From positions 1 through 25,956 of IMG/VR virus record IMGVR_UViG_3300030106_002038: 25,956 nt of DNA. The stretch is one strand, 5' to 3'. The notes below the pieces were generated by a model. That model was given only the letters and a program-made list of their open reading frames with translations, did not search any database and was not told the DNA's origin. This DNA is from a virus. The translations under genes were made by a program, and so were the position numbers. Position 1 is the stretch's first letter. The number at the start of each line of letters is the position of its first letter. Below are positions 3,344-24,640 of this stretch, in pieces.

Positions 3344-3365
3344 GGTGTGTTGTTTTGTGTTTGAC
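3344..3365 (-). promoter_or_regulatory. A/C-rich translation leader, exact copy
   Basis: The minus strand reads GTCAAACACAAAACAACACA then CC before the ATG at 3343, identical over 20 bases to the leaders at 24619 and 24382. It begins immediately after the TAA of the gene upstream, with no promoter between, so its role is likely at the mRNA level. Confidence 0.72.
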
Positions 3366-3566
3366 TTACTTGTTCAGGCCCGGACCAACCAACAAAACGG
3401 TCAACCGATGGTTGCTTTCGGGTCGTACATTCCACGCGCCTTTGTGGTTGCGGAAATATACCGTTCGGCCGGCGGACAAATCCTTGTTCATGGTGCGGAT
3501 TTGCGCCATTGAACAATCTAATTTTTTAGCAACGCGGGCCAAAAGGTAATCAGGAAAATAAAACAT
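3366..3566 (-). CDS. Small protein of unknown function with possible HTH (66 aa)
   Basis: A 66-residue basic protein starting MFYFPDYLLARVAKKLDCSM. The segment LLARVAKKLDCSMAQIRTMNKDL could be a short helix-turn-helix; the rest is KGAWNVRPESNHRLTVLLVG. A strong promoter lies upstream. The frame also opens at ATG 3590 (adding MSNTNKHN), but those codons are the conserved leader sequence, which at other genes has no ATG, so ATG 3566 is preferred. If transcription starts close to 3590, a near-leaderless start there cannot be excluded. Likely an early accessory or regulatory protein, function unknown. Confidence 0.74.
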   Translation of the reverse strand: MFYFPDYLLARVAKKLDCSMAQIRTMNKDLSAGRTVYFRNHKGAWNVRPESNHRLTVLLVGPGLNK

Positions 3567-3588
3567 GTTGTGTTTGTTTGTGTTTGAC
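3567..3588 (-). promoter_or_regulatory. A/C-rich translation leader copy
   Basis: The minus strand reads GTCAAACACAAACAAACACA then AC before ATG 3566, a close copy of the phage leader. Here the base pair before it creates an in-frame upstream ATG (3590). Confidence 0.68.
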
Positions 3589-3594
3589 ATGCCG

Positions 3595-3625
3595 TAAAGA
3601 TACGCACACAATTCACACAACCAAA
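3595..3625 (-). promoter_or_regulatory. Bacteroidota-type promoter for the 66-aa and 101-aa genes
   Basis: TTTG at 3625-3622, a 19-base spacer and TATCTTTA at 3602-3595 on the minus strand. The spacer holds two TTGTGTG units nine bases apart. A run of ten A residues lies upstream. It sits between the nuclease stop and the 66-aa gene. Confidence 0.87.
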
Positions 3626-3653
3626 CAAAATGTGATTTTTTTTTTCTGGAATG

Positions 3654-4031
3654 TCAGAATCCGACCACGTCGTCGTTGTTGAAGTAGTCCCGCAACACGG
3701 CCACGGTTTCGTCGAACCCTGTGCAAACAACGGCGCGCCATCCTCGGTCGTTCAGACGACGGATGGCGTCGCGTTGTGCGGCCGACACACGACCGCGTTT
3801 CGCTTTCAATTCGATGGCCAACCCGACAAATTCACCGCGCGGTTCGAAAAACAACATGTCCGGAACGCCGGCCAAATATCCCGCCGCCTTCATTCGTTTG
3901 GCTTGATTCATGGACAATCGCACACCGCCCACGGTGGCGCAAAACATGATGTCCGGCGAATGTTCTTTCAAGCGTCGCACGACCTCACATTGAATGTCGT
4001 GTTCCGGACTCGCATTTTTTCGCGCGGTCAA
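3654..4031 (-). CDS. VRR-NUC family nuclease
   Basis: A 125-aa stand-alone VRR-NUC domain of the PD-(D/E)xK superfamily. Visible motifs are an early helix with the conserved acidic residue (SPEHDIQCEVVRRL, E10), GVPDMLFFEP with the metal-binding D58, the IELKAK strand (E74, K76), and RGRVSAAQRDAI, whose Gln (Q86) is family-typical. Small phage VRR-NUC proteins are thought to act as structure-specific nucleases in recombination or Holliday-junction processing. The start appears to be TTG at 4031, overlapping the TGA of the amidase gene, since the domain begins too early for the next in-frame Met to work. The gene ends 29 bases before the next promoter. Confidence 0.85.
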   Translation of the reverse strand: MTARKNASPEHDIQCEVVRRLKEHSPDIMFCATVGGVRLSMNQAKRMKAAGYLAGVPDMLFFEPRGEFVGLAIELKAKRGRVSAAQRDAIRRLNDRGWRAVVCTGFDETVAVLRDYFNNDDVVGF

Positions 4032-4516
4032 AAGGCCAATGTCTTTTCGGCGGTTAACAACGCCTCATGAATTCCAAGTTCACGCCACGGTTCGTTGTTA
4101 ATGTGCCAAAATTCATCCGTGACGTCGAAACATGGACACGCCTTGTTTGCAAATTCATTGTGACCGTGTACCGTTTTAATGCTCGGAATTGCCACCATCA
4201 GAGCCATGGACAACATCACCATGGCGGCCGTTTGTTCCTCGGTCCGCGTGTCGCGTGGTGTTCCGTCCACGTCCAGTCCCCCGGCGTACGCGATGCCAAT
4301 TGACGATTTGTTTTCACCTTTCACATGGGCGCCGATTTGGTCAATCGGTCGCCCGTGTTCAATCGTCCCGTCGGTACGAATTAAAAAGTGATAACCGACA
4401 TCACGCCATCCGCGACCCTTTGGCGGTTTGTCCATGTGCCATCGGCGCACCGTGGCCACGTCGACATCTCGGGCCGTGGCGGTGCAATGCAAAATGATTT
4501 TGTCAATTCGACGCAT
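4028..4516 (-). CDS. N-acetylmuramoyl-L-alanine amidase (endolysin)
   Basis: A 162-aa protein made of one zinc amidase (amidase_2 / T7 lysozyme-PGRP) domain that cuts the bond between MurNAc and L-Ala in peptidoglycan. The zinc ligands are H10 (IILHCTAT), H119 (VHGHNEF) and C127 (KACPCFDV). The catalytic equivalents of T7 lysozyme Tyr46 and Lys128 are Y42 (VGYHFLI) and K125. No signal peptide or cell-wall-binding domain is present, as expected for a Gram-negative host and holin-dependent release. Its start overlaps the end of the 59-aa membrane protein gene by 14 bases, forming a lysis pair, and its stop overlaps the nuclease start. Confidence 0.93.
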   Translation of the reverse strand: MRRIDKIILHCTATARDVDVATVRRWHMDKPPKGRGWRDVGYHFLIRTDGTIEHGRPIDQIGAHVKGENKSSIGIAYAGGLDVDGTPRDTRTEEQTAAMVMLSMALMVAIPSIKTVHGHNEFANKACPCFDVTDEFWHINNEPWRELGIHEALLTAEKTLAF

Positions 4517-4682
4517 CGTCGACCATGTTTTGCCGTTCCTTTCTTGCCTTCAACGCCCGTTCGACATTCATCCAAATCAATGTCACGGCCCCAATTGCAC
4601 CCAACGCAAAGGTCACGCACTCTGTGACCGTGACGTATGTCCACCCCAATGTTGCAACGTTCAAAATGTTTTCGCGTGTCAT
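4503..4682 (-). CDS. Small holin-like membrane protein (59 aa)
   Basis: A 59-residue ORF translated directly from the sequence: MTRENILNVATLGWTYVTVT, then ECVTFALGAIGAVTLIWMNV, then a charged tail VERALKARKERQNMVDDASN. It has one or two closely spaced hydrophobic segments (about residues 6-18 and 22-40) and a basic C-terminus, typical of small phage holins or spanin-like lysis proteins. The ATG overlaps the TGA of the tail fibre gene (ATGA), and its 3' end overlaps the amidase start by 14 bases. Position directly before the endolysin is the main argument for a holin role. It could also be a signal-arrest regulator, since a second, better holin candidate lies at 20399-20836. Confidence 0.78.
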   Translation of the reverse strand: MTRENILNVATLGWTYVTVTECVTFALGAIGAVTLIWMNVERALKARKERQNMVDDASN

Positions 4683-7600
4683 GTCGTCGCAATTGTTATG
4701 TCGGCGCCAAAAATGAGGCGGTCCGTTGAACCGGGCGCGACTTCAATGACAATCGAAGCGGTCGCCCCCGACGTGATGTCGGTGATGTCAATGTTTGCGT
4801 TTGTGTCCCCCGTGCCAACGCTTGTCGTTGCGCCTGTCGTGTGATTGAACGAATATATTTCGACACCGCCCGAAACGGCCGCGTCGGTGTACACTTGAAC
4901 GTGTGTCGCTTTATATCCCGTCGGGATTTCATTGAATGCGAACATGAGTCCCGTTGCTTGGTTACATGCGGCGCCCAAAGTGTTGGAAGTGTCATCTTCA
5001 ATTCGAATTTGAGTGATGGCGCGTCCAACATCGTTTCCAAAAAATTCGGTCGGAAACACCTTGATGAGCGTACCGGAACCATGCCAACCACCGCCAGCGT
5101 TCGCAAAAGACAAAACACCCGACCCGTTCGTTTGCAGGAATTGACCGGACGACCCATCGGTGACCGAACCCAGAACACCCGACGCGTTGAAGGTCGCAAC
5201 CTCGACGCCGGTTTGCCCCGTGCGGGTGGCGGCGTCGTTGTTCGCTTCATCCAACATATTTTCAACCGCGGTCATCTCGCTTTGAAGCGTCGAAATGCTT
5301 GAACTGTTTGTGGCAATGTTCGACGTGTTGGTTGCAATGTCCGACGTGTTGGTTGCGACGTTGGTGGTATTGGTGGCGATGTTTGTTGCGTTGGTTGTAG
5401 CGACGCCGGCAACCGCAATCAAGGACGTGTTGGTGCTTGCAATGCTTGTCGTGTTCGTCGCAATGCTTGTCGTGTTCGTCGTCGTGTCGTCCCGTACCGC
5501 ATCCAAATCGGTTGTCGCGGTCACCGAAATCAAATCGGTTTTGTCCTCGATGTCCGCAATTGAAGTCGTATGAGATGCCGTCGTCAATGTGTTTGACGAA
5601 ATCGCATTCAACTGTGTTTGTGTTATCAATTGGTGGTCGGTCGACGTCAACAATTTGTCCGCGCGGATGGCGTCTTGTTCGATGCCGATGGACGTGAACG
5701 CCGTCCCCGTTGCGTTCAATGTAAGAGGACCAACTTTTGCGGTGACCGTGTCCAAATCAACGGCCCCGGTCACGGTCAAAAAATCTGTTTTTGCACGAAT
5801 GGCCGTCACCGCATCGTCAGACAATGCAAATTTCAAATCGACCGCCGGTCCAATGGGTTTTGGACCCTTGGACGTCGGTCCGGTCGCAACGGGTTGAATT
5901 GTTCCAATTGGACGCGGACCACGTGGGCGTCGGAAATCGTTGGCCTCTGTAACAGTCGTCAACGGACGAAGGGACGACAATTTGCAAAGGGTCGCGCCGA
6001 CCGTTGCGTTCGTCCATTTCAATTCCAGAATTTGGTAAAACTCTTTCGTGCCGTCGCCATATTCCAACAACACCGGTCGTCCAAAGTGGAGCACCGTAAA
6101 CGCTGACGCGCTGAACGAATTTTTTTGATTGGACAACGACAAATTCATGTTTGAACGGTCCGTGAATGAAATATTCACGTCTTTAATCAACAACGGTTTG
6201 TCACGCTTTTGCAACACCTCAAACGCGCGCAACTCATGAATGTACTTGCCATCGTTCGTCACCGTGTCACACGTCACCCAGTCGCGTTCTGGAAAACGAA
6301 TCGCCCCGGTCGAATGATGTCGAACACGCACCGACCGAAATTGTTGTGTGTCGTCGTATTTGTCGCCCAACACGCTTTCACCCGTCACGATTTTGGACAC
6401 GTTGTTGTCCTGTCGTGCCACAAATTCGACGTCCTCGTCATCTTCGCCGGCACCGACAACAACTTTGAATTGGTGAATCCCGCCAAAATCGGTTCGGTTG
6501 TTGGTAAAGGTTCGACCGTTGGACATGATGTCGAACAAATCGGTTCCCACGATTGATTCGTTGTCTGAATCCAGAAGGGACCACGCGAATGTGATGGTGA
6601 CCCCCGTGTGTTCGATGTTTTCCGGCAATGGTGGCAACGTCCACGCCATGTCAAAAATGGAATCATGTTGCATGGTCCCGTCCCCCGTCAACAAACCTTC
6701 GGTCGTTTTGAATTCGGCTTCGTTGGATGAACGACGTTCGGCATGAAGTCCACCGACAAATTCGAACTCGGTTGTGTCGTCACCGCTTGACAGTATGACC
6801 GTGGCCGCGGGCGGGTCGGACGTGGTTCGCGGCAAAATGAAGTCGTATGTGTTGGCGTTTGTTGTCCATTCAACATCCCCAGATTGGTCAAAAAACTTTG
6901 CCGTTGCGACCTGTACGCCAATCGAATTTTTGATTGGGGCCGTTTCGCTTCGTGTCGTGATGTCGCGTTTGAGGTGATAATCCCCGACTTTGATTGTCAA
7001 ATTGCAACGGTACTTCATGCCGCGACAACGTGTCGTCACATACTGCGACAACAACCGACCCATTTGTTCCAACAGAATTGTCCCCGACAACGTCAAGGTT
7101 TGACCGCCACTAACGACACACGCTTCGTTCGAAAATGTTTTGTCGATGAATGAAATTTGGTTCGATTCGTTTTTTTCGACCTCGAACAAGTCCAAACTAA
7201 CAAAACCAAAATCGGTGTGCTCAAGGGAATGTCCCGTTGAACTGATGATTGACCGCGAACCGCCTTCCAAATGAATCGACGACACGGATTGAACCGGGAA
7301 CATGACGGTTTCAACAACGCCGTCGGTAAGGTCGAACCCGCTTTGGAACGGCGTAAACGAACGCGTGTCCAATGGGTCTGTGATTGGCCCCACGGAAATG
7401 TTGTTGACCAAACGAATTTGACGCAAAAACGCGTGTTGCCTGTGGTCGACCGCCGTTTCGGATTCGGCAACGTGAACGTCGGGGTTGGTAAACCACCACG
7501 AACCCCATGACAAGAAAATTTGCGCCCCAAATAACGACGCGCAATGTTCTAAAACCTCGCCACATGAAGTGAACGAACGCCGGCGAAACTTACCGCCTAA

Positions 7601-8494
7601 CGGGTCCGTTTCGGTGTGGACGTCAACAAATGCTTTGGACGGGACAAATGTGTTTTCAAGAATAGACGCCCCGCCGGGGATGGCGTCGCCGGATTCTGAG
7701 GTTGGCAAGTGTTGGTCCTTGTCCAGAATCCACACGGATTCCCGCAGGAATGGAACAACGGGCTTGTCGGTCGCCGCTGAACGAATGATGTCGGCCGCAA
7801 CGTAATCATGTGACGCGGTCGTTGACCCGTCGTAATTATTCCAACCCCAAAGGGTTGAGGTTGGCAATTTCTCAAAACAACGACCCAACGTTTTGGCCAT
7901 CGAGGCGGAATCTTCGTAGATGCTTTCCCCGGCCGGTCGAAACGGTTCGTCATTCAAAAGAACCAATCCACATTGGGCGGACAATGTCATGACGCGCAAA
8001 GGCGAATCTTTGGACTTCGATTCGCCTTGGTCGGCCATGATTGTTCCAAACCACATTGGCCGCCAATATCCGTTCGCGTTTGCCAATTGGTCGGTTTGCG
8101 TTGGTGTGCTTGAACCCGCGTTTTCGTCTGGTTCAAAGACGAACAACGCCAAACCAAAACGATTGTCCAAATTGCTTTGAATCGCGTCGAACAATTCACC
8201 GTGTTCGGTCGTTTCCTCCAACACTTGAATGGTGAATGTGGACGGAACCAATGGGGTGTGACGTTGGTCCGTGTTGCCGTCGTACTCCAAAAGAAACGCG
8301 CCGGCGTCGTCACCAACCAATTCAATATGGTTCACGGTCGACTCGCTTTGACTAAACGTCCCGGCGGTCGCGCCGGAATCAATTATTTCGACACGGTACG
8401 CGTGGCCATCGGCGCCGCCAACCTCACTTTTGAAACGCGCTTTCCAACCTGAATCCGAACCGTCGGTTGTCCCGTCATATCGTTGTATCGCCAT
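4679..8494 (-). CDS. Tail tip and receptor-binding fibre protein (1271 aa)
   Basis: A single 1271-aa protein between tape measure and lysis genes, where siphoviruses encode tail-tip and fibre proteins. Residues 1 to about 860 look like a mixed beta-rich tip/baseplate region with Trp-rich segments (YWRPMWFGTI, FLSWGSWWFTNPD). A Gly/Pro linker (RRPRGPRPIGT to GPKPIGPAVD) follows. Residues about 1004-1075 are 7-residue repeats of the type ATNTSDIATNTSNI, a trimeric coiled-coil stalk. The motif SSGQFLQTNGSGVLSFANA (about 1115-1133) is typical of fibre tips, and about 135 residues form a C-terminal beta-sandwich-like head, the likely receptor-binding part. No separate Dit, Tal or fibre gene exists here, so this protein may combine those roles. 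It starts 9 bases after the tape measure stop. Confidence 0.83.
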   Translation of the reverse strand: MAIQRYDGTTDGSDSGWKARFKSEVGGADGHAYRVEIIDSGATAGTFSQSESTVNHIELVGDDAGAFLLEYDGNTDQRHTPLVPSTFTIQVLEETTEHGELFDAIQSNLDNRFGLALFVFEPDENAGSSTPTQTDQLANANGYWRPMWFGTIMADQGESKSKDSPLRVMTLSAQCGLVLLNDEPFRPAGESIYEDSASMAKTLGRCFEKLPTSTLWGWNNYDGSTTASHDYVAADIIRSAATDKPVVPFLRESVWILDKDQHLPTSESGDAIPGGASILENTFVPSKAFVDVHTETDPLGGKFRRRSFTSCGEVLEHCASLFGAQIFLSWGSWWFTNPDVHVAESETAVDHRQHAFLRQIRLVNNISVGPITDPLDTRSFTPFQSGFDLTDGVVETVMFPVQSVSSIHLEGGSRSIISSTGHSLEHTDFGFVSLDLFEVEKNESNQISFIDKTFSNEACVVSGGQTLTLSGTILLEQMGRLLSQYVTTRCRGMKYRCNLTIKVGDYHLKRDITTRSETAPIKNSIGVQVATAKFFDQSGDVEWTTNANTYDFILPRTTSDPPAATVILSSGDDTTEFEFVGGLHAERRSSNEAEFKTTEGLLTGDGTMQHDSIFDMAWTLPPLPENIEHTGVTITFAWSLLDSDNESIVGTDLFDIMSNGRTFTNNRTDFGGIHQFKVVVGAGEDDEDVEFVARQDNNVSKIVTGESVLGDKYDDTQQFRSVRVRHHSTGAIRFPERDWVTCDTVTNDGKYIHELRAFEVLQKRDKPLLIKDVNISFTDRSNMNLSLSNQKNSFSASAFTVLHFGRPVLLEYGDGTKEFYQILELKWTNATVGATLCKLSSLRPLTTVTEANDFRRPRGPRPIGTIQPVATGPTSKGPKPIGPAVDLKFALSDDAVTAIRAKTDFLTVTGAVDLDTVTAKVGPLTLNATGTAFTSIGIEQDAIRADKLLTSTDHQLITQTQLNAISSNTLTTASHTTSIADIEDKTDLISVTATTDLDAVRDDTTTNTTSIATNTTSIASTNTSLIAVAGVATTNATNIATNTTNVATNTSDIATNTSNIATNSSSISTLQSEMTAVENMLDEANNDAATRTGQTGVEVATFNASGVLGSVTDGSSGQFLQTNGSGVLSFANAGGGWHGSGTLIKVFPTEFFGNDVGRAITQIRIEDDTSNTLGAACNQATGLMFAFNEIPTGYKATHVQVYTDAAVSGGVEIYSFNHTTGATTSVGTGDTNANIDITDITSGATASIVIEVAPGSTDRLIFGADITIATT
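5270..5485 (-). repeat. 21-bp coding tandem repeats of the fibre stalk
   Basis: Imperfect tandem 21-base units within the fibre gene encode heptads such as ATNTSDI, ATNTSNI and ATNTTNV. Repeats of this kind can change copy number by slippage, altering stalk length in steps of one heptad. Confidence 0.75.
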
Positions 8495-8503
8495 GACTAC
8501 AAA

Positions 8504-11500
8504 TTACAAAACCGACCGCCGCGACAATGCGCGTCCGGCCCGCCGTGTTGAAATTTCCAATGTGTTTCCTTGAATGCGCGTGTGAATGTCCGACTGTTGA
8601 CCGCCGGCCATTTGCATGAACGCCCCCATTTTTTCAAATGGAACAATGAATTCGCCCCGTGACGAAGGTTTTTCCCCAATCAACGCCAACGTTCCACCAC
8701 GGCCGCCCAAGATGGCGCCACCCTCAGCGAACGCCGGAATGCTGGAAAACAACGATTTGGTCGCCGCAATCAATCCGGCCGCCTTTGCGGGTGCGGCCGC
8801 GCCACCCGTCACGATGTTGTCAGGTGACGCGGGCGAAAACGCCGACGCGACCGCGTTTGAAATGGCCGTGGCCAACGCTTGTTTGATTAGACCTTTGACG
8901 ACGCCTTTGGCCGCTTCCAACATGCTTTCACCCAACTTTTGGTTTTTGTCGAATACGGCGTCGACCGCGGCGCCGGCGACGTCGGTTGCGGCCATTTGAG
9001 CGGCGGCGGCGGCGTCGAATTTCTCTTTGTTTTTTTCTTGTTGTTCTTCGACACCTTTCAATCCCTTCCGCAATCGTTCCGCCTCCGCGGTCATCTCCGC
9101 AAATTTCGCCGTGTTCACAAAATCTGGGTCGGACAATGCCATGTCCTGCAACGCTTGGTCCAAGGCGGTCAACGCTTCGTGCGCGGCGTCCATTGACGAC
9201 AAAAGGCCGGCGCCCTCCAAAACCTTCAGTTCCGCCATTTTCGACCGCAACGATTCCAACGGACCCGTCGTTGTGGTTTCCGTTTCCGCGCCCAACGTTT
9301 TGACCGCGGCGGCCAACGCGGCCAACACCGATTCAGAATCGCCGCCGAAATCCTCACCCAATACGGATTGCAACGCGGAAATTTGTTCAGTCGTTAACTT
9401 CAACGCGGACACGTCAAGTTCGCCCGAAACGCCTTCGACGATGTCGCCAATGGCCTTGTTCAAATCGGACAAACGTTCGGCGTCACGTTCCCCGAACGCC
9501 TCGCCAAAGATGCTTTCCGTTTTTGTTGTTTTGGCCAACTCACCCGCCAACCCGGTCACGACGTCGGCCAATGTTTTTGTTTCGTCGGTTTGCGTCTTTG
9601 TCGCGTCGGCGGATTTTTTCTTTGCGTCGGTTGATTCTTCTTCGGCCTTCGTTTCGCTTTCCTTCGTTTCGGCCGCTTTTGTTTGTGTTCCGTCCAGACG
9701 GTCGACCAAAGTTTCGAAATTGCGCACCGCCTTCGACGCGTCGTCTACATTCCGGGCGGCGCTGAATAGTTTTGTTCCAAAGAATCCGCCGCTATCTGTG
9801 GCCCGACGAAGGGCGGTTTCCAAATCCCTTCCCGCGGCGCCACGCAAAGTGTTCAATCGGGTTTGAAATGTAGCAATGTCAATTTCACCCGAACTCAATT
9901 CACCAACCAAATCGCGCACACCGTCCGACAACGCCGCGATTTTGTCGACATCGCCACCGTCCTCAAACGCACGCATTTCAAAATCAATCAAAACTTTTTC
10001 GACAGTCGTGACGGCTTCGGCTTGTTTCTTTGTGGTGTCTGCCAACAATTGCGCCCGAACACGCGACGCCACCGCGTCACGAACTGCGTTTTCCGCTTTC
10101 TCGATGTCCTCCAACGACGCCGTGTTCAAATCCAAGTTCCCCAAGTATTCGCCGTACTGCGAATTAATGTCTTGAATTGCTTCGGACCGGTCGCGCTCGC
10201 CTTTGGCGGCCAATTTCAATTTCCCAAACAACGTCGTCACCTCGCCGCGTTCCTCCGCAATGGCCTTGTTCATTTCCTTCGTTGCGCCCGCCATGGACCG
10301 CGACTTGAATTCCAACGACGACATGCGTTTGATGACCGGACGCAATGCCAATCCCAATCCCACAACCGCCGCGGTCACCGCGAGGAATGGACCGGAAACC
10401 AACACGGCCGCCAAACTTGAAAACGACGTGGCCGCCGACGTTCCCGCCAACGCGGCCGCGCCTTGCAACAACTTGAATCCCTTGGAAATGGAACCAATGG
10501 CGGCGGTCAACTTGCCGCCGACAATCAACAACGGACCCAACGCCGCCGCGGCCATGCCGAATTGAACAATCGTTTGTCGCGTCCCTTCGTCCAAGTTAGC
10601 AAACGCCGACGCCATGTCACGAATCACGTTGACGACTTCCAAAATCGTTGGCGCCAACGCCGTTCCCAATTCGATTTGGGCGGCCTCGATGGCCGATTGC
10701 ATTTCCGCCAACTTACCCGCGGTCGTGTTGCCCATGGCGTCGGACATGCCCAACGCAGTCCCTTCGGCCTCCATGAATGACGCGTTCAACGACGCCAAAT
10801 CTTCCAAATTCTTTCCGAATACGGGTCCAAGAATTGCCGCCCGCGTTCCCAACAATTCCAACGACTCCGTGTACCCGGTCCCGCCTTGAATTATTTTTGT
10901 GAATGTGTCCTTAACCGGGACCCCAGATTTGGCCAATTCACTGAACGCCATTTTCAATTTGGTTCCCGCGTCCGACCCTGCGATGCCGTTGTTTGCCAAC
11001 ACGGCAATGAGCGACGACGTTTCTTCCAAACTAAACCCAAATTCGTTCGCGACCGGCGCGACGTTTTTCATGGATTCTTTGAATTTTTCCAAATCCAAGG
11101 CCGACCCGGCAAACGACGCCGCCATGACGTCGGTCACGCGACCCGTGTCCGCCGAATCCAATCCGAATTGTCGCAACGTTGCACCGACAACCGTTGCCGT
11201 TTCCCCCAAATCTTGGTCAAACGCCTTTGAAAGATTCAACACGGCGTTCGTCATTCCGGGGATTCCATCGCCCCCGGTCAATTCCTTTTGAGTGAATCCA
11301 AGTTTCGACAACTCCAATTGAAGTTCCGAAACCTGTGACGCGCTGAACGACGTCGTGCCCCCAAGGTGCTTCGCTTGTTCCGTTAATGCCCCAAGGGATT
11401 TGGCGCCGCCTCCAGACACGGCGCCGACCTTTGCCATGGCCAATTCAAAATCGGCGGCAACCTTGAATGACGACGCACCAACGACGGCCAATGGGGCCGA

Positions 11501-11641: not shown

Positions 11642-11643
11642 TG

Positions 11644-14116: not shown

Positions 14117-14733
14117 CGAATGCGTCGCAATGATTTCACAATTGATTCAAACGCCAATGGCATCACAAACGGTCGGCCCGTTGCGACACCTCCGGCTTCA
14201 CGGTTTTCGTACAAATGAGCCAAATACAAAAGGCAAGCGCCCTGAAACAATTTGGACGTTTGTGTTGTGCTTGTGGAAACCAAATCGTCGTCACCCAGAA
14301 TTGCGCATTCCAATTTGTACGGGTACGGGTCGTCCAACGCGTAATCGGTTGGCGATTGAAACGTCAATTTTTGTTCCAAGACCGACGGCGACGTGGCGTT
14401 GTGCGTGACGAACGCATCGTTCACCGTGATTGTTTTGGTTGTGTGTTGGTCTGAATTGTACGAAAACGCGTTGACACGGTCCAACCGAAACGGCAGTTCC
14501 AAACGTTCCGGCAATGTGTGAATGTACACATTGGCCGATTTGCTTTGCACGTGACGACCCGTCAGGCCCTCAACATATCGAATCGCCAATTCACCCAACA
14601 TTGCGACATGGTTTCGTTCATTGGACCCCACGTCACCAATGTCGGCGCGAAGGTGTGATTCCACAATGTCAACGCCGCCCAACAACGTGAGAGAGTCGAG
14701 AGCGTAAAAATACTCTATTCGAATGTTTTCCAT
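14113..14733 (-). CDS. Head-tail connector (adaptor) protein, gp6-like
   Basis: A 206-aa protein in the place of the HK97 gp6-type adaptor that binds under the portal. The N-terminal part has the helical pattern VESHLRADIGDVGSNERNHV, then MLGELAIRYVEGLTGRHV, the usual ITAA..YVE..TGR region of these adaptors. A beta insertion follows, and then GACLLYLAHLYENREAG near the C-terminus, another family signature. ATG 14733 is chosen because an A/C-rich leader (GACAAAACACACGACA) precedes it; the frame is open further upstream through 14838 but runs over a tRNA-like fold and near a terminator. It is the first gene after the capsid terminator, so it needs read-through or an unseen promoter. Confidence 0.85.
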   Translation of the reverse strand: MENIRIEYFYALDSLTLLGGVDIVESHLRADIGDVGSNERNHVAMLGELAIRYVEGLTGRHVQSKSANVYIHTLPERLELPFRLDRVNAFSYNSDQHTTKTITVNDAFVTHNATSPSVLEQKLTFQSPTDYALDDPYPYKLECAILGDDDLVSTSTTQTSKLFQGACLLYLAHLYENREAGGVATGRPFVMPLAFESIVKSLRRIR

Positions 14734-19215: not shown

Positions 19216-19395
19216 CTATTTCGGACGGGGACATGACGTCGTTGGTGGTTGGTTGGACAACATTTGCAAAAAATCGGATTGGTCCAGAATGCCGTTCCCG
19301 TTGAAATCGAACAATGACGCGTTCGAACCGGGCGTGACCTCACACCCGAAGTTCGTCAAGAACAACAACAAATCCATGATGAAATCGGACCACAT
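19216..19395 (-). CDS. EF-hand/dockerin-like small protein (59 aa)
   Basis: A 59-residue product: MWSDFIMDLLLFLTNFGCEV, TPGSNASLFDFNGNGILDQS, DFLQMLSNQPPTTSCPRPK. DFNGNGILDQSDFLQML has the dockerin/EF-hand pattern D-x-N-G-x-G-x-(I/V)-x-x-x-D followed by an amphipathic helix; the first half (DLLLFLTNFGC) resembles the helix preceding such a loop in tandem dockerin repeats. Calcium binding by residues D30, N32, N34 and D38 is therefore possible. It sits between the zinc-finger mini-gene and the portal gene. An in-frame GTG at 19440 with an A-rich upstream stretch would give 74 aa. A strong inverted repeat spans the ATG. Role unknown: possibly a virion decoration, a protein-protein adaptor, or captured host DNA. 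Confidence 0.62.
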   Translation of the reverse strand: MWSDFIMDLLLFLTNFGCEVTPGSNASLFDFNGNGILDQSDFLQMLSNQPPTTSCPRPK

Positions 19396-19422
19396 GCGTT
19401 TGTGTACGCATGCGGCCCGATT
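19383..19422 (-). repeat. 17-bp inverted repeat over the start of the dockerin-like gene
   Basis: Arms at 19383-19399 and 19406-19422 pair over 17 positions with a 6-base loop. The two non-Watson-Crick positions become G-U pairs in minus-strand RNA, so the RNA helix is uninterrupted. The ATG at 19395 lies inside the 3' arm. No T-run follows, so it is not a classical terminator. Confidence 0.75.
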
Positions 19423-19468
19423 CGCGTTTGGTTTGTTCACCTGTTTTTTGCTTCGTTTTGAAAGGTAG

Positions 19469-19639
19469 TCACAGGCGGTCGTCGCGCCATGCGTCAAACG
19501 CGTCGTCGTCGGGCGTGGGATGCGGTCGCCATTTGCCGGAACCACCGCAACGGTCGCACACAACCCAATGGGGTGAACCCGGCGGGTCAATCCATCCTCC
19601 TGCCCCGTCGCATTCGGGGCAATCAGTACACGACGCCAT
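19469..19639 (-). CDS. DnaJ-type zinc-finger mini-protein (56 aa)
   Basis: A 56-residue ORF translated directly: MASCTDCPECDGAGGWIDPP, then GSPHWVVCDRCGGSGKWRPH and an acidic tail PTPDDDAFDAWRDDRL. It holds two CxxCxGxG-type units (CPECDGAG and CDRCGGSG), the zinc-binding signature of the DnaJ cysteine-rich domain, here a single pair that can bind one zinc. The ATG lies within the last codons of the metallophosphoesterase gene, overlapping by 17 bases, and the codon use (GAC, TGC, CCG) fits its neighbours. Such phage mini-zinc-fingers are widespread but usually uncharacterised; roles in protein or nucleic-acid binding are possible. Function not established. Confidence 0.75.
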   Translation of the reverse strand: MASCTDCPECDGAGGWIDPPGSPHWVVCDRCGGSGKWRPHPTPDDDAFDAWRDDRL

Positions 19640-20402
19640 CGACAATTCGCATGTTTTGAAATGAGAACGACCCAGATTTTCGGATGTCTACAAACCCGAA
19701 TCCGTGATTCCATTGGTTGTGTTGGAGATAGTCCGGCGACAAGTCGCACAAACAACCGACAGACCACGACGTTGAAATTTTGCCGTTGATGTCTTTGGTT
19801 GTGAACTCGGATGTGCGGTGGAAATGACCACAGACGGACGAATGTTGCGTTCGCAAATGCAACCATCGCGCCGGATGTTGACCGCCTGAACCCCGACCGA
19901 CCTCATGGCCATGAACAACGAACAATTTCCCAAACCTTGCAATCCGCCAATCTTCAACGTAATTCACCGACAATCCCGCGTCCGACAAAACCCGGTCCAA
20001 ACTGAACGACGGAACACCCAAAAGTTCAGGCGCACGCGCCGCCAAATATCGGTCAAAGCGGTTTTCGTGATTGCCCATTTTGGCCCAAACGTTTGCGTCT
20101 GGAAACGCGGTCGCGACGGCGTCAACAAACGATTTCGCCATTTCTAATTCGTCAACAAACCTCCGTTCGCGCGGGTCTTTCTCGAATGACGACAACGAAT
20201 AAAAATCCAAAATGTCGCCATTCAACCAAACGTCCGTCACTTTTTCTTGCAAACCAAAATCAATCGCGGCGGCGATGGCTTTGTTGTCGTGAAATGGAAT
20301 GTGGATGTCGGACAAAAACAACACCCGACGCGGCCCGTTGATTTGCAACGGTGCGCGCGTCATGCGCTTGTTCGGTTTCGGCAAATTGAACCGCGATTTC
20401 AT
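19623..20402 (-). CDS. Calcineurin-like metallophosphoesterase
   Basis: A 259-aa protein with all five metallophosphoesterase motifs: SDIH (D32, H34), NGDILD (D63), MGNHEN (N111, H112), VVHGHE (H164, H166) and CGHFH (H193, H195). These bind two metal ions and hydrolyse phosphomono- or diesters. The N-terminus (NLPKPNKRMTRAP) is a basic extension before the first strand. The substrate cannot be read from the sequence; phage relatives include DNA/RNA phosphatases and enzymes that degrade nucleotide signals. It overlaps the 3-TM holin stop by ATGA and its 3' end overlaps the zinc-finger mini-gene, so all are on one message upstream of the head genes. Confidence 0.9.
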   Translation of the reverse strand: MKSRFNLPKPNKRMTRAPLQINGPRRVLFLSDIHIPFHDNKAIAAAIDFGLQEKVTDVWLNGDILDFYSLSSFEKDPRERRFVDELEMAKSFVDAVATAFPDANVWAKMGNHENRFDRYLAARAPELLGVPSFSLDRVLSDAGLSVNYVEDWRIARFGKLFVVHGHEVGRGSGGQHPARWLHLRTQHSSVCGHFHRTSEFTTKDINGKISTSWSVGCLCDLSPDYLQHNQWNHGFGFVDIRKSGSFSFQNMRIVDGVVY

Positions 20403-20836
20403 TTCACGGTTTTTTCAATTGTGCGGCCGGCAAAGTAGGCGCCAAATACGGTCAACAACAACGTTTCGAAAATGCCGGACGACGTTTCATTGAGGTGGAA
20501 AATCGACGGGGCGATTGCGTTGGCAAAAACCAAAATCACGAAACCACACGTCAAAGAAAGCAACACCAACGGCCGAACATTTTTTGACAACCACGAATCC
20601 GATTTCATGTCGGTGGACCATTGGCCCGCAACATCGACCCCGACAATTTCGCGCGTTTCCGTCATGGCAATTTCGAACGCGTCACGTTCTGGTTTTTTGA
20701 ACGACCGTGTTTCAATCAACGACGCGATGGAATCCAGAAGGAACCCGGCCGGAATCATGTCGGCAAACGCCCGCAAAATGTCGGGCGCGTAACGACGCAA
20801 CCAAACGCCAACGGGCGTCGACCGAATGGTTGTCAC
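20399..20836 (-). CDS. 3-TM holin (GTA-holin-like)
   Basis: A 145-aa protein closely resembling the 3-TM holin family first named from gene-transfer-agent release. An amphipathic N-terminal part (WLRRYAPDILRAFADMIPAG) precedes a charged helix (ERDAFEIAMTETREIVGVDV), and then the family signature QWSTDMKSDSWLSKNVRPLV. Two clear membrane segments follow (VLLSLTCGFVILVFANAIA and IFETLLLTVFGAYFAG), with an RTIEKTVK basic tail. The start is likely GTG 20836, or TTG 20842, which overlaps the TGA of the small membrane protein gene; the longer frame to 21061 only covers that other gene. Together with the amidase it can form the lysis system, although it lies far from it. Confidence 0.85.
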   Translation of the reverse strand: MTTIRSTPVGVWLRRYAPDILRAFADMIPAGFLLDSIASLIETRSFKKPERDAFEIAMTETREIVGVDVAGQWSTDMKSDSWLSKNVRPLVLLSLTCGFVILVFANAIAPSIFHLNETSSGIFETLLLTVFGAYFAGRTIEKTVK

Positions 20837-20838
20837 CT

Positions 20839-21033
20839 TCAACCCCGACGTTCGATTTTGTCGTTCTTCGGCTTGTTCGCTTTGTTGTTTGAAACGATTG
20901 CGTTCACCGCGGCGTCCAGCCAACCGAAAACCACGACGTCGTCGGCCGTTGTCGGTGTCAAGTTCGCGACGATTTTTGCGATTCCCAGAATGGCCAACAA
21001 AAGTTCGGCCCAATTTTGAATGATGAAATCCAT
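20839..21033 (-). CDS. Small one-helix membrane protein (64 aa)
   Basis: A 64-residue protein starting MDFIIQNWAELLLAILGIAK. One hydrophobic helix (about residues 9-26) is followed by a polar middle (LTPTTADDVVVFGWLDAAVN) and a Lys/Arg-rich end (NNKANKPKNDKIERRG). This pattern fits class-III-like holins or small lysis-accessory proteins, and it directly precedes and overlaps the 3-TM holin gene. A structural or membrane-anchoring role is possible. The ATG at 21033 lies 37 bases after the stop of the 99-aa gene. Confidence 0.8.
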   Translation of the reverse strand: MDFIIQNWAELLLAILGIAKIVANLTPTTADDVVVFGWLDAAVNAIVSNNKANKPKNDKIERRG

Positions 21034-21070
21034 TTCGCAATGTTTGAAAAAACCGTTTCATTGTCTGGTT

Positions 21071-21370
21071 TCATTTTGTAAGGTTGCACAAATACGCGAT
21101 GTGGTTTTTGATGGCCGTTTTCGAGGGGTTCCGGTCTTCCATTGGGTGTCTACGATTCAACCGCGCCCGTGTCGCGATTTCCTCCAATTCCGCATTTTCA
21201 ATTTCCACCGTTGCGTCGTGTAGGTACTCAACAACCAAATCAATTTCGACAGGGTCACCAACACTTTGCAAAACCAAACCGGCCACCATACGACGACGCG
21301 CCATGTTTTTTTCATGGCCCGACGCATCCGCCGCCGCCCAAAGTTCGTCGAAATCTTCAACGGTCGACAT
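21071..21370 (-). CDS. Helical protein of unknown function (99 aa)
   Basis: A 99-aa, mostly helical protein beginning MSTVEDFDELWAAADASGHE. It contains a Met/Arg cluster (KNMARRRMVAGLVLQSVGD), an acidic helix (VEYLHDATVEIENAELEEIA) and a C-terminal segment KTAIKNHIAYLCNLTK that could be a short DNA-binding helix. No zinc or membrane motif is seen. The start overlaps the stop of the annealing-type protein gene by 14 bases, suggesting the two work together or are co-expressed. Function unknown. Confidence 0.78.
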   Translation of the reverse strand: MSTVEDFDELWAAADASGHEKNMARRRMVAGLVLQSVGDPVEIDLVVEYLHDATVEIENAELEEIATRARLNRRHPMEDRNPSKTAIKNHIAYLCNLTK

Positions 21371-21773
21371 CTTCAACCCCGTGGTGTTCATCCTCACTAA
21401 TGACGCCGGCGTGCGCGTACAGTCCGACAACCTTCAAAACGGCGCGTGACAACGCGCGTTTTTCAGCCATGGCGAACGGGTATTTGGTGCGGTTGTTCTG
21501 TGGCGACGCTTCGCCGTACGTTTCAACCGTCAACACGTTGTCCGTTTCTTTGTCGGTGTGTGTGGCTTTTGCCTTGATGACCACAAACCCCGGATTGTCC
21601 GACACGACTTCAAAGGTGACAACAACGCCGTGACGCGCTTGGATTTTTTCAATTCCAGTTCGTGTGATGATTGCAAATTGCGGCGACATAAACACGTCGT
21701 CAGGCGTCAAGCCATTTTCGACAAACAACGTGTTCAGGTGTTCGCGTTGACTTTTGGTCAATTTCTTTTTCAT
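21357..21773 (-). CDS. Putative ssDNA-annealing (Rad52-like) recombination protein
   Basis: A 138-aa protein. The body has a central beta-sheet (FAIITRTGIEKIQARHGVVV, TFEVVSDNPGFVVIKAKAT, VLTVETYGEAS) and then a helix of the form AMAEKRALSRAVLKVVGLYA, ending in an acidic GVISEDEHHGVEDVDR tail. A beta-sheet followed by an A.AEKRA..RA.LK..G helix is the plan of phage single-strand annealing proteins related to Rad52/Sak, and the acidic tail is common in ssDNA-working proteins. This is a pattern match, not a proven family assignment. ATG 21773 follows the upstream stop by 11 bases; the frame opens earlier at 21821 inside that gene. The VRR-NUC nuclease elsewhere could act in the same pathway. 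Confidence 0.6.
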   Translation of the reverse strand: MKKKLTKSQREHLNTLFVENGLTPDDVFMSPQFAIITRTGIEKIQARHGVVVTFEVVSDNPGFVVIKAKATHTDKETDNVLTVETYGEASPQNNRTKYPFAMAEKRALSRAVLKVVGLYAHAGVISEDEHHGVEDVDR

Positions 21774-21784
21774 GACTTTGGTTT

Positions 21785-22228
21785 TCACATTCCGAATCGT
21801 TCGGAACCACAATTTGAACAATGACCCGTCGGCGTGTTGAACGTTGCCGTTTCACAAACTGGACAATATATTTTCAACGGGACGTTTTGCAAACGGTTAA
21901 TTTCCATTTCCAATTCAATGATTCGGGCGGCGCGGTCCGCGGCGGCCCCCATGGCCGCGCGACACGCGCGCGCCTCACACGTCAATGCATCGTCCAAGGC
22001 GTACGAATGAAGATACAAACGACGGACGAGGTGAACCGCTTTTTGTAGGTGTTGCCGAACGTCGTTTGGCAAGTTGCCCCACGTTTCTAATTCGTGTTCG
22101 ACCAAATCGGCCCAACCGGCCGCGTGTGTCCTCACCCACATGCGGTCCAAAAAATCGCCGTGTGAAGATTCACGGCGGGCATTTACGGAACCAATTTTTG
22201 AATGTCCGTTTTCAATGTTTGAATCCAT
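21785..22228 (-). CDS. Zinc-ribbon protein of unknown function
   Basis: Up to 147 aa. The N-terminal two thirds are helical (WADLVEHELETWGNLPNDVR, HLVRRLYLHSYALDDALTCE, RIIELEMEINRLQN), and the C-terminus is a four-cysteine zinc ribbon, CPVC with a second CSNC knuckle 12 residues later, ending GSERFGM. Start choice is open: ATG 22228 overlaps the upstream gene by 46 bases, while ATG 22141 leaves a 41-base gap and gives 118 aa. Codons between the two look phage-like, so the long form is kept. It precedes the putative annealing protein by 11 bases, so DNA or RNA binding in recombination or transcription is possible. No family recognised. Confidence 0.76.
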   Translation of the reverse strand: MDSNIENGHSKIGSVNARRESSHGDFLDRMWVRTHAAGWADLVEHELETWGNLPNDVRQHLQKAVHLVRRLYLHSYALDDALTCEARACRAAMGAAADRAARIIELEMEINRLQNVPLKIYCPVCETATFNTPTGHCSNCGSERFGM

Positions 22229-22530
22229 TGTTCCAATGTTGTGATGTGGTCCAGATATTCAGACGCCGACGCCACATGGTCGACGGTAAAGCGCAAACCC
22301 AAAATGGTTCCCGTCAAAAGTTCGTGGGCATCGTTCCAACGGTGTTCGTTGGCGTGTTCCGACGCGCGTTCCAAATCTTCAATGACCCACATTTGCATTG
22401 TTCCGGGCCATCTGGTCCGGCCAACCCATTTTGACAACCGTCCAATTCGGTCGGCCATGAATTCGCCGTGGTTTTTTTTGGTTACAAAATCCGATGTCGC
22501 AACGGGAAAAATCAACGATTTGGTTTCCAT
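22183..22530 (-). CDS. Unknown protein after a terminator (115 aa)
   Basis: A 115-aa protein with a Trp/Arg-rich middle (MADRIGRLSKWVGRTRWPGT, MQMWVIEDLERASEHANEHR) and a helical C-terminus (VASASEYLDHITTLEQWIQT). No zinc, membrane or nucleotide-binding motif is visible. It is the first gene after the terminator at 22574-22614, and a possible weak promoter overlaps that terminator's T-run. Function unknown. Confidence 0.75.
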   Translation of the reverse strand: METKSLIFPVATSDFVTKKNHGEFMADRIGRLSKWVGRTRWPGTMQMWVIEDLERASEHANEHRWNDAHELLTGTILGLRFTVDHVASASEYLDHITTLEQWIQTLKTDIQKLVP

Positions 22531-22546
22531 GTGGACAATTTAGGTC

Positions 22547-22577
22547 CAAAAATTGTTGGTTGTGTGGCATTTGCAAA
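22547..22577 (-). promoter_or_regulatory. Possible promoter overlapping a terminator T-run
   Basis: TTTG at 22577-22574, 19 bases, then AATTTTTG at 22554-22547 on the minus strand, one mismatch from TAnnTTTG. The -33 TTTG uses the end of the terminator's T-run. It would restart transcription for the 115-aa gene and those that follow. Confidence 0.4.
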
Positions 22578-22614
22578 AATAAAGCGACCCGGCGTTGTTC
22601 GTGCGCCGGGTCGC
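22574..22614 (-). terminator. Strong terminator after the 86-aa gene at 22622
   Basis: A perfect 11-bp stem (GCGACCCGGCG/CGCCGGGTCGC) with a 9-base loop, followed by TTTATTTTTG on the minus strand, 7 bases past the stop of the 86-aa gene. Confidence 0.9.
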
Positions 22615-22621
22615 AATGCCT

Positions 22622-22882
22622 TCAATCGAATTGGAACGCGTCCCCCAGTTCGCCCGCCATGACCAATTCGGTCATGATTTCGCGTTTAGCGTCGCCTGAA
22701 TGCAACGCGATTCCGCCGCGGTTTTCAATCCATGCGTCCCATTCACGCAACGGTTCGCCCGCAATGATTGGCGGCGTTTTGGTTCCTGTGGATGCCATTT
22801 CGTCGGCCGCGTAAACTTTGCCCAAATTAAACGCCGCCTCGATGGCTTCGTTCAATTTGTGGATGTCGACTTGAATTTTCAT
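22622..22882 (-). CDS. Unknown acidic protein with phage leader (86 aa)
   Basis: An 86-aa acidic protein: MKIQVDIHKLNEAIEAAFNL then GKVYAADEMASTGTKTPPII, followed by GEPLREWDAWIENRGGIALH and an acidic end. The first 32 residues look helical; no zinc or membrane motif is seen. The ATG is directly preceded by a copy of the A/C-rich leader and the stop of the 60-aa gene lies just before that, so both are one transcript from the promoter at 23102-23132, ended by the terminator at 22574. Function unknown. Confidence 0.8.
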   Translation of the reverse strand: MKIQVDIHKLNEAIEAAFNLGKVYAADEMASTGTKTPPIIAGEPLREWDAWIENRGGIALHSGDAKREIMTELVMAGELGDAFQFD

Positions 22883-22905
22883 TGTGTGTTAATTTTGTGT
22901 TTGAC
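22883..22905 (-). promoter_or_regulatory. A/C-rich translation leader copy
   Basis: GTCAAACACAAAATTAACAC then ACA before ATG 22882 on the minus strand. It matches the phage leader over its first 13 bases and then varies, showing that the 5' half is the better conserved part. Confidence 0.68.
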
Positions 22906-22914
22906 TTTGTTAGA

Positions 22915-23097
22915 TTACAAACCCCAATCCATCCGAAGCAAATCCCCGTTTTTGTGCGCGCGCATCAAATCGCGTTTTGTATTGAACTGGATGTTGTTTG
23001 ACGTTTCAATACACATGACCGTGTATTTGCCACCTTCCAAACCAAGTTGTTTTGTAAGGAAAACCCGGAGGGTTGGTTGTGTGTTTGTGTTTGACAT
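22915..23097 (-). CDS. Small unknown protein starting inside the leader (60 aa)
   Basis: A 60-aa basic protein, MSNTNTQPTLRVFLTKQLGL then EGGKYTVMCIETSNNIQFNT and KRDLMRAHKNGDLLRMDWGL. Its first codons are a copy of the phage leader sequence, here translated, because no other ATG is available before coding-like sequence begins. The ATG at 23097 lies only 5 bases after the -7 box of a strong promoter, so the mRNA may be leaderless or nearly so. The open frame continues upstream to 23274, but that part lies over the promoter and the terminator and is not expected to be translated. Function unknown; likely an early protein. Confidence 0.72.
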   Translation of the reverse strand: MSNTNTQPTLRVFLTKQLGLEGGKYTVMCIETSNNIQFNTKRDLMRAHKNGDLLRMDWGL

Positions 23098-23101
23098 GAC
23101 C

Positions 23102-23132
23102 CAAAGATACGCACACAATTCACACGTCCAAA
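23102..23132 (-). promoter_or_regulatory. Bacteroidota-type promoter for the 60-aa and 86-aa genes
   Basis: TTTG at 23132-23129, a 19-base spacer and a perfect TATCTTTG at 23109-23102 on the minus strand, with A-tracts upstream. The 23 bases up to the middle of the -7 box are nearly the same as in the promoter at 3595. Confidence 0.9.
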
Positions 23133-23162
23133 TTTTTTTGGAACTTTTTTTTGATTTTCTGG

Positions 23163-23196
23163 AAAAAACAAAGGCCGCGACGTTTCGCGACCTTTG
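23163..23196 (-). terminator. Terminator upstream of the promoter at 23102
   Basis: On the minus strand a 12-bp stem (CAAAGGTCGCGA pairing with TCGCGGCCTTTG, one G-U pair) with a 4-base loop, directly followed by TTTTTT. It insulates the block upstream from the promoter downstream. Confidence 0.88.
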
Positions 23197-23280
23197 CCCG
23201 GTGGACCATTCCCGTGTTGTCAAACGACGCGACACATGGCGCGCCAGTCCGTTTGCTGAATTAAAAAAAACCAATCACCG

Positions 23281-23532
23281 TCACCGGTTCACTACGAAAC
23301 GAACGACAACGTCCGCCGCCGATTTCAACGAAGGCATGGACGCGAACCGCGTTCGTGTTCCGGCGCAATATCGGTCAACATTCCAAGATTTGCAACCCCG
23401 GATGTCGCGCGCCGTTTGTGACAATGTCCAAACGTCGCCGTCGACCTGACATTGCCACATTGTTTGTCGTCGCCGTCTGGATGGAGGGCCAACTATGACG
23501 GACCGTTTTTGCCAATCCAAATCCATGTTCAT
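23281..23532 (-). CDS. Small basic putative DNA-binding protein (83 aa)
   Basis: An 83-aa basic protein starting MNMDLDWQKRSVIVGPPSRR. The middle GDVWTLSQTARDIRG could be a short helix-turn-helix and the C-terminus is KSAADVVVRFVVNR. The ATG overlaps the TGA of the upstream 63-aa gene (ATGA), which decides this start over the longer frame open to 23685. It is the last gene before the terminator at 23163. A DNA-binding role is an inference from the basic charge and helix pattern; no family is recognised. Confidence 0.68.
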   Translation of the reverse strand: MNMDLDWQKRSVIVGPPSRRRRQTMWQCQVDGDVWTLSQTARDIRGCKSWNVDRYCAGTRTRFASMPSLKSAADVVVRFVVNR

Positions 23533-23720
23533 TTGTATTGAATGACAATCGCGTTCCAACACCGGACCATTTCGGACAACTCCGATTCCGACAACGGGCG
23601 ACGGATGGCCCGGTAAATTTGCCACGTTTGTTCGTGGTGGCGCTTCGTCATGCCACCCCGGATTGTTGACGTCAAAGGCAAACAATCCGCGTGTGGTTGG
23701 GTTGGTTGTGGTTGGTTCAT
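23529..23720 (-). CDS. Unknown small protein (63 aa)
   Basis: A 63-aa protein. The first 20 residues are Pro/Gln-rich (MNQPQPTQPHADCLPL), followed by a helical basic part (MTKRHHEQTWQIYRAIRRPL) and SESELSEMVRCWNAIVIQYK. The start overlaps the preceding stop by ATGA and its stop overlaps the next start by ATGA, which is the best evidence for a real gene. An internal Met at residue 24 could serve as a second start. Function unknown. Confidence 0.65.
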   Translation of the reverse strand: MNQPQPTQPHADCLPLTSTIRGGMTKRHHEQTWQIYRAIRRPLSESELSEMVRCWNAIVIQYK

Positions 23721-24109
23721 TGGTTGATGCTCATTTGGTCGGCAAAAGTGAACGCCCGGTCGTAAAAGTGACGGCGGCGGTGTGCGTTGTAGGCGCGTTC
23801 TTTCAAATACTCAATTTCGGCAATCGGTGTCCATCCGTCATAATTACGAAACCACGCCGGTTGTTTCTTGAAATCATCCGTATCAAACAACCCGAAAAAT
23901 TCGCCACACGGACTTATCATTGCAATTTTGCGAAACACCTTCAAACGTTCTTCGGTCCATCCGTTTGAATCCAAAACCGTGACAAAACCCGGTGTTCGCG
24001 AAACGATTGTGTGAGTCGTGCTTTTGTGGTGTTCTGTGAATTGGTTTTCGTCGTACCCTTGAATATTTTGCGCGTATGTCCGCCCGACTTCAAATGTGAT
24101 GTTGTGCAT
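23717..24109 (-). CDS. Unknown protein (130 aa)
   Basis: A 130-aa protein starting MHNITFEVGRTYAQNIQGYD. The segments HTIVSRTPGFVTVLDSNGWT and ERLKVFRKIAMISPCGEFFG, rich in strand-forming residues, suggest a small alpha/beta domain, followed by a basic helical end (YLKERAYNAHRRRHFYDRAF). ATG 24109 is 11 bases after the previous stop and is preferred to an earlier in-frame start that would overlap that gene by more than 150 bases. The set continues by ATGA coupling into the 63-aa gene. Function unknown. Confidence 0.78.
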   Translation of the reverse strand: MHNITFEVGRTYAQNIQGYDENQFTEHHKSTTHTIVSRTPGFVTVLDSNGWTEERLKVFRKIAMISPCGEFFGLFDTDDFKKQPAWFRNYDGWTPIAEIEYLKERAYNAHRRRHFYDRAFTFADQMSINQ

Positions 24110-24120
24110 GGCTTCAAAAA

Positions 24121-24381
24121 TTATTTGTTGAACGTTTCCCAATTTGCCAAAGGCGTACCTCTCCACGCGTGGCGGTCGGACATGGTTTGCGCGATTGCCA
24201 ACGCTTCGGTCATGGTGTCCGCCAAATCCCATTTCCGGTTGTGGTCCGCGTTTGAAATCATTGGACGTTTGCGGCATGTTCCGCGAAATGTGATTTCAAT
24301 TCGGCCGTCGCAACGTCCCATAAAAGACGCCTCGCCGTATTGGTACACCTTTGAAAGACGGATGTTTTTTGACTGTGACAT
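24121..24381 (-). CDS. Unknown protein with phage leader (86 aa)
   Basis: An 86-aa basic protein: MSQSKNIRLSKVYQYGEASF then MGRCDGRIEITFRGTCRKRP and a helical end (DTMTEALAIAQTMSDRHAWR). A compact alpha-beta fold is likely; no catalytic motif is seen. It begins right after an exact leader copy fused to the T-run of a terminator, with no promoter between, so expression depends on read-through, RNA processing or an unseen start. It leads a four-gene set (24121, 23717, 23529, 23281). Function unknown. Confidence 0.77.
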   Translation of the reverse strand: MSQSKNIRLSKVYQYGEASFMGRCDGRIEITFRGTCRKRPMISNADHNRKWDLADTMTEALAIAQTMSDRHAWRGTPLANWETFNK

Positions 24382-24403
24382 GATGTGTTGTTTTGTGTTT
24401 GAC
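24382..24403 (-). promoter_or_regulatory. A/C-rich translation leader fused to a terminator
   Basis: GTCAAACACAAAACAACACA then TC before ATG 24381, identical to the leader at 24619 over all 22 bases. It starts exactly at the end of the terminator's TTTTTT run. Confidence 0.75.
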
Positions 24404-24431
24404 AAAAAACGGGAGGGGCAAACCCCTCCCG
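24404..24431 (-). terminator. Strong hairpin terminator after the 59-aa gene
   Basis: A perfect 9-bp GC stem (CGGGAGGGG/CCCCTCCCG) with a 4-base loop, followed by TTTTTT on the minus strand, 7 bases past the 59-aa stop. Confidence 0.9.
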
Positions 24432-24438
24432 GTTTTGT

Positions 24439-24618
24439 TTACGACAACCATGGATTGAATACGACGCCCCTCCGCTTCAATTCGTCTTCGATGTGGTGGA
24501 CGGTAGCGCGTGCGCCAGTCACCCAAAATTTTGGAAAAGCGCCTGCCTTGAGGCCGTCAATCGTTCCTTGATGCTCATTCAACAAGGATTTCGTGGTGTG
24601 GTTTGTGTAATTGTACAT
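24439..24618 (-). CDS. Unknown promoter-driven small protein (59 aa)
   Basis: A 59-aa basic protein, MYNYTNHTTKSLLNEHQGTI, DGLKAGAFPKFWVTGARATV, HHIEDELKRRGVVFNPWLS. It forms its own unit between a strong promoter with leader and a terminator. The C-terminal VHHIEDELKRRGV could be an amphipathic helix. The frame opens further at 24642 (adding MSNTKQHI), but that is leader sequence, so ATG 24618 is used. A likely early accessory protein; function unknown. Confidence 0.77.
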   Translation of the reverse strand: MYNYTNHTTKSLLNEHQGTIDGLKAGAFPKFWVTGARATVHHIEDELKRRGVVFNPWLS

Positions 24619-24640
24619 GATGTGTTGTTTTGTGTTTGAC
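24619..24640 (-). promoter_or_regulatory. A/C-rich translation leader, exact copy
   Basis: GTCAAACACAAAACAACACA then TC before ATG 24618 on the minus strand. One of three identical 20-base copies in the window. Confidence 0.75.

Follow-up and report, generated by a model that had tools for sequence, protein, structure and literature searches.

A recurrent A/C-rich leader before small phage genes, probably a portable translation-initiation module independent of the Shine-Dalgarno sequence

The cluster K mycobacteriophages carry a repeated sequence, the Start-Associated Sequence (SAS), that overlaps the Shine-Dalgarno sequence and about half of whose copies have an extension holding 17-bp inverted repeats, later described as a putative promoter (PMC3203893, PMC11373665). 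In Salmonella, clusters of ACA triplets enhance translation, and CA-rich start regions are known targets of small RNAs (PMC3879156). How Bacteroidota choose their start codons without Shine-Dalgarno pairing is only partly understood; in F. johnsoniae high translation goes with A at positions -3, -12 and -13, A at -6 is also favourable, and the Bacteroidota spacing from TAHHTTTG to the RNA start is 4-5 nt (PMC6847099). Here we describe an A/C-rich leader that recurs before small genes of a tailed phage and that is probably a phage-borne, interchangeable module for translation initiation independent of a Shine-Dalgarno sequence. A literature search found no earlier report of this leader.

The DNA analysed, referred to here as the window, comprises the whole of a 25,956-base IMG/VR virus record. 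Its genes are those of a tailed phage and include terminase, portal, HK97-type capsid, prohead protease and amidase; all the genes identified in it lie on the minus strand. Its promoters are of the Bacteroidota type and its DnaB-like protein has distant relatives in Riemerella, Flavobacterium and Tenacibaculum phages, so that the host is likely to belong to the Bacteroidota. The seven genes that carry a leader are small (59-101 aa) and none of them has a PHROG match; many other genes of this phage start without a leader.

The repeat GTCAAACACAAAACAACACA is present in the window as three exact copies (20-mers at 3346-3365, 24384-24403 and 24621-24640) and one copy with two mismatches (3569-3588), all on the minus (coding) strand. 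With up to three mismatches allowed, these four matches compare with 0.06 expected, and 0 shuffles reached four. Related stretches at 22886-22905, 23076-23095 and 1159-1178 lie at edit distances of 3, 4 and 5, respectively. Identity between copies is confined to the leader and the ATG and goes no further on either side, and the genes that follow are unrelated to one another; on these grounds segmental duplication was rejected as the source of the repeat. Upstream of the exact copies lie a stop codon (3365), the T-run of a terminator (24403) and a promoter (24640). The GTCAAACACAAAACAACACA repeat is one version of a broader A/C-rich element of about 20-27 nt, in which we distinguish class I leaders, AUGUCAAACACAAAACAACACA, from class II leaders, AUCAAACAAAC plus A/C (Table 1).

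The original prediction of a leader lying always directly before a start codon was borne out in part: the three exact copies and the near-exact one at 3569-3588 stand, but some of the copies listed need correction. The sequence at 23076-23095 contradicts the word always, as it forms codons 2 onward of an open reading frame (ATG at 23097, MSNTNTQPTLRV...). The copies at 3588 and 24640 do precede an ATG, but an in-frame ATG also lies directly upstream of each (3590 and 24642), 24 nt earlier, and the copy at 1156-1179 is indeed a leader before a start codon, but one of the other class. As for the two weaker echoes, the one at 2968, CACAAAATCAACACGC-ATG, is kept in two relatives, and at 14733 the minus strand has no more than A/C-rich sequence ahead of an internal in-frame Met.

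Table 1. Leaders, promoters and associated features in the window.
Positions	Strand	Feature	Gene	Remarks
1156-1179	-	Class II leader ATCAAACAAACAAAAACACACACC-ATG	964-1155 (63 aa)	Predicted +1 at 1179
1185-1214	-	Promoter		TATCTTT (1185-1191), TTTG (1211-1214); Bacteroidota consensus
2969-2984	-	Weak leader-like CACAAAATCAACACGC	DnaA-like gene	Kept in L224 and L228
3344-3365	-	Exact class I leader, promoterless	3038-3343	Abuts stop codon of preceding gene
3567-3590	-	Class I leader, 2 mismatches	3366-3566	ATG 3590 (predicted +1) in frame with ATG 3566
3596-3625	-	Promoter		TATCTTT (3596-3602), TTTG (3622-3625)
22883-22905	-	Diverged class I leader, promoterless	22622-22882	Edit distance 3
23071-23097	-	Leader sequence as coding start (MSNTNTQPT)	22915-23097	ATG at predicted +1
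23103-23132	-	Promoter		TATCTTT (23103-23109), TTTG (23129-23132)
24382-24403	-	Exact class I leader, promoterless	24121-24381	
24404-24431	-	Terminator-like hairpin and T-run		Directly upstream of 24403 leader; 9 pairs, 8 G-C
24619-24642	-	Exact class I leader	24439-24618	ATG 24642 (predicted +1) in frame with ATG 24618
24648-24679	-	Promoter		TATCTTT (24648-24654), TTTG (24676-24679)

Strong G+C hairpins stand directly before a leader at three places, at 24404-24431 (-) in the window, before the orthologous gene in the relative L010, and at 5320-5345 in L226. The T-run that makes the window hairpin terminator-like is lacking in L010 and L226. Such a hairpin may be an attenuator or may stabilise the RNA.

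The leader had been described as holding one G and one T, no Shine-Dalgarno sequence and little structure, and this is correct. In a comparison of six leader starts with 17 other starts, the latter hand-picked, the mean MFE was -2.6 kcal/mol for leader starts and -10.0 kcal/mol for the others, and 82% against 56% of the bases from -20 to +5 were unpaired. All six non-coding leaders of the window combine A-3, A-12 and A-13 with low structure and the lack of a Shine-Dalgarno sequence; A-6 is present in none of the six, its place being taken by C. Five ACA triplets fall within 22 nt at each leader start, compared with 0-4 at other starts. Together the low structure, the favourably placed A residues and the ACA clusters make direct recruitment of Shine-Dalgarno-blind ribosomes by the open A/C-rich leader the most likely mechanism, in which an unstructured 5' leader with several ACA triplets would bring in ribosomes without Shine-Dalgarno pairing. 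Low structure is read directly from the sequence; the recruitment itself and the size of its effect are what we infer.

The presence of an exact 20-mer before unrelated genes and in different genomes might also be explained if the leader were the binding site of a trans-acting factor placing the small genes under joint control, be it an RNA-binding protein of phage or host or a small RNA rich in U and G; the small-RNA targets among CA-rich starts in Salmonella (PMC3879156) are in keeping with such a role. We consider this unlikely, as no candidate factor was found, a comparison with Rfam gave no match to the leader, and orthologues live with the other leader class or with none. In the original prediction a phage-specific translation element and a coordinating RNA-binding regulator had been offered side by side. 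No direct evidence for the regulator was found, whereas the translation element is supported by the promoterless use of the leader, by its interchangeability between unrelated small genes and by unstructured starts bearing known Bacteroidota determinants (PMC6847099).

An exact scan found the 20-mer GTCAAACACAAAACAACACA in four viral contigs, two of which are relatives of the window as judged by terminase and DnaB-like searches. A contig of 27,431 bases is 85% identical to the window in TerL and 88% in the DnaB-like protein, for which the figure is 99% in the L005/L224 contig. Other relatives match at 80-88% in one or other of these two proteins. Both leader classes precede many genes in the relatives. 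The 25 leader genes of the clade include only three homologous pairs, and the members of two of these carry leaders of different classes. The orthologue of gene 24121-24381 has a promoter and a class II leader in L227 and a hairpin with AAAAACACAC in L010; the L228 orthologue of gene 3038-3343 lacks a leader of this kind; the DnaA-like gene follows a near-class I leader in L007 and no leader in L225; and the L098 orthologue of gene 22622-22882 retains GTCAAACATCAAACAACACATTCAC. A gene replacement between two leaders is seen when 22900-23140 of the window is set against L098:1-330. Promoter, leader and the first nine codons are common to the two (one base differs); unrelated small proteins follow, and then a common next leader-bearing gene.

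From the unrelated leader genes, the class swaps and the replacement in L098, the element behaves as a module that is not tied to any single gene family; exchange of such a module between genes would leave orthologues with a class I leader, a class II leader or none. An open A-rich leader would not need 20 identical bases, so that the identity of the copies asks for exchange among phages or for a second constraint. Plausibly it is kept by such exchange together with selection on the start site. The alternative that the repeats serve mainly as homology sites at which small-gene cassettes are swapped between phages and have only a secondary role in expression would account for the unrelated gene that lies between common flanks in the window and L098, and for the change of leader class between orthologues. 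We regard it as improbable, since recombination alone is insufficient to explain either the tie of position and orientation to start codons and the predicted +1, or a composition typical of open start sites.

Use of the leader both with and without a promoter, as originally proposed, was confirmed: four copies stand behind a promoter and three (3365, 22905 and 24403) are promoterless. The four, with first bases at 1179, 3590, 23097 and 24642, follow TTTG-N19/21-TATCTTTR-NNNC and place A+1 4 nt after the -7 box. Given the published spacing of 4-5 nt, the predicted first base of the RNA is the A of ATG(TCAAAC) or ATC(AAAC), that is, the first base of each promoter-coupled leader. This linkage, like the recurrence and interchangeability of the leader, is a direct reading of the DNA, and the start of transcription is what we infer. 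An independent test came from loci not chosen for the motif, a set that includes the window's close relatives and redundant loci: of 82 occurrences of CATCAAAC, 22 lay 3-4 nt behind TAHHTTT, and the similar control words CTACAAAC, CACTAAAC, CATCAAAG and CATCTAAC gave 0. With the close clade left out and redundancy removed, the only 8-mers behind -7-like boxes to reach three copies were words of AACATCAAACA (3 against 0.01-0.02 expected, the counts being small); with redundancy kept, the k-mer test was dominated by shared coding regions. A sigma-70-type match on the plus strand (TTGACA...CACAAT) was discarded: it reads the element in reverse complement, on the strand that carries no genes, and matches of this type were at chance level (3 found, 1.9 in shuffles).

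Behind a phage promoter, the RNA would have the first A of A(UG)UCAAAC or AUCAAAC as its +1, and the leader would then make up the whole 5' UTR. Elsewhere, the leader would allow independent starts at genes within operons or after hairpins. The strong linkage of CATCAAAC to the -7 box could also be expected if the conserved 5' end were the initially transcribed sequence of the promoter, serving start selection or promoter escape and not translation. We consider this reading unlikely, as the promoterless copies at 3365, 22905 and 24403 and those in L226 and L008 retain the whole leader. Because promoterless copies sit behind stop codons or hairpins, the arrangement of the copies indicates that the leader acts in RNA.

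For gene 22915-23097, whose start codon coincides with the predicted +1, a leaderless mRNA is predicted, and the +1 AUG of promoter-coupled class I leaders could be the sole start in some genes. That the sequence is in general an N-terminal coding tag (MSNTKQH/MSNTNT) of leaderless genes is highly improbable: it is coding at 23097, L098:47 and L225:11469 and has an in-frame ATG upstream at 3590 and 24642, but there is no upstream ATG at 3365, 22905, 24403 (TTG only), L226:8232, L228:8508 and L008:7145, nor in class II leaders. A double use of the +1 AUG, as part of a leader and as a start, is plausible.

Beyond the clade, class II leaders behind TATCTTT were found in at least 119 viral contigs (29-56% GC), a minority of which by inspection do not represent promoters, compared with one contig when the promoter box was scrambled. 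The scan pattern required CAT-N0-2-CAAACANAC, so the conservation of those positions is by construction. Of 80 non-redundant sites, 71 had within 70 nt an ATG that begins an ORF of 30 codons or more, the median distance being 24 nt. Class I leaders with a +1 AUG are nearly confined to the window's clade. Over many viral loci, leader lengths from the predicted +1 to the ATG peak at 24 and 27 nt; a preference for multiples of three was not significant once similar leaders were merged (13/28, p 0.10). Among four cultivated phages examined, a class II-like promoter unit was seen in one, Bacteroides phage BS-TP3, where it lies (L254:2501) upstream of gp29 and divergent from a gene with a repressor-like annotation. 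The element was not found in three flavobacterial phages with a distant DnaB-like relative, and most of the BLAST matches to the class II unit were chance ones.

The proposal that the leader is phage-specific agrees with its absence from, or lack of enrichment in, the sampled Bacteroidota genomes. A relaxed class II unit was found in 3 of 296 Bacteroidota genomes, in none of them with TATCTTT, and TATCTTT-N4-CATCAAAC in none of 61. Five matches to the class I leader with ATG were found in genome contigs, without an exact 20-mer among them; they came from low-GC Firmicutes, MAGs of other phyla and one Bacteroidales MAG. An origin as a host motif was rejected on this lack of enrichment in a sample of one genome per species.

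A wider reading, which we put forward tentatively, is that Bacteroidota viruses share a portable RNA 5'-end module in place of the Shine-Dalgarno sequence, in which transcripts initiated at the promoter would open with the A of AUCAAACAAAC or AUGUCAAACAC and recruit ribosomes through that end, class I serving as UTR, as a leaderless coding start, or as both through in-frame AUGs 24 nt apart. Standing before unrelated genes and differing between orthologues, the leader appears to be a naturally selected minimal start signal for Bacteroidota. It might be used as a compact part for expression, and its 5' end offers sequence by which promoters and small genes could be located in uncultured Bacteroidota viruses.

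Set beside known systems, the leader resembles the Kozak-like starts of Bacteroidota (F. johnsoniae, PMC6847099) in A-3/-12/-13, low structure and a TAHHTTTG box 4-5 nt before the RNA start, but host starts share single-position preferences whereas the leader is a repeated 20-mer with C at -6. The ACA enhancers of Salmonella yifK and dppA (PMC3879156) likewise cluster close upstream of the start, but their action goes together with a Shine-Dalgarno sequence and GcvB, a small RNA, silences them; neither was found for the leader. The E. coli 5'-terminal AUG mRNAs (PMC4965119) also have an AUG at the 5' end, predicted here, and a second start downstream; in the leader the two AUGs share a frame at a distance of 24 nt, and no Shine-Dalgarno sequence accompanies the second. 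The leader comes closest to the SAS of cluster K mycobacteriophages (PMC3203893, PMC11373665). Both are short asymmetric repeats in one orientation, directly upstream of the starts of many unrelated genes; in both, some copies bear a promoter extension and others do not, orthologous genes occur with or without a copy, and host genomes are nearly devoid of them. SAS is the 13-bp GGGATAGGAGCCC, overlapping the Shine-Dalgarno sequence, whereas the leader is the A/C-rich GTCAAACACAAAACAACACA without one; unlike SAS, the leader begins at the predicted +1 and can be coding, and its promoter extension is TTTG/TATCTTT, in which inspection found no inverted repeat such as that of extended SAS. By this analogy the leader would work like SAS and is not a member of the SAS family but its Shine-Dalgarno-free counterpart.
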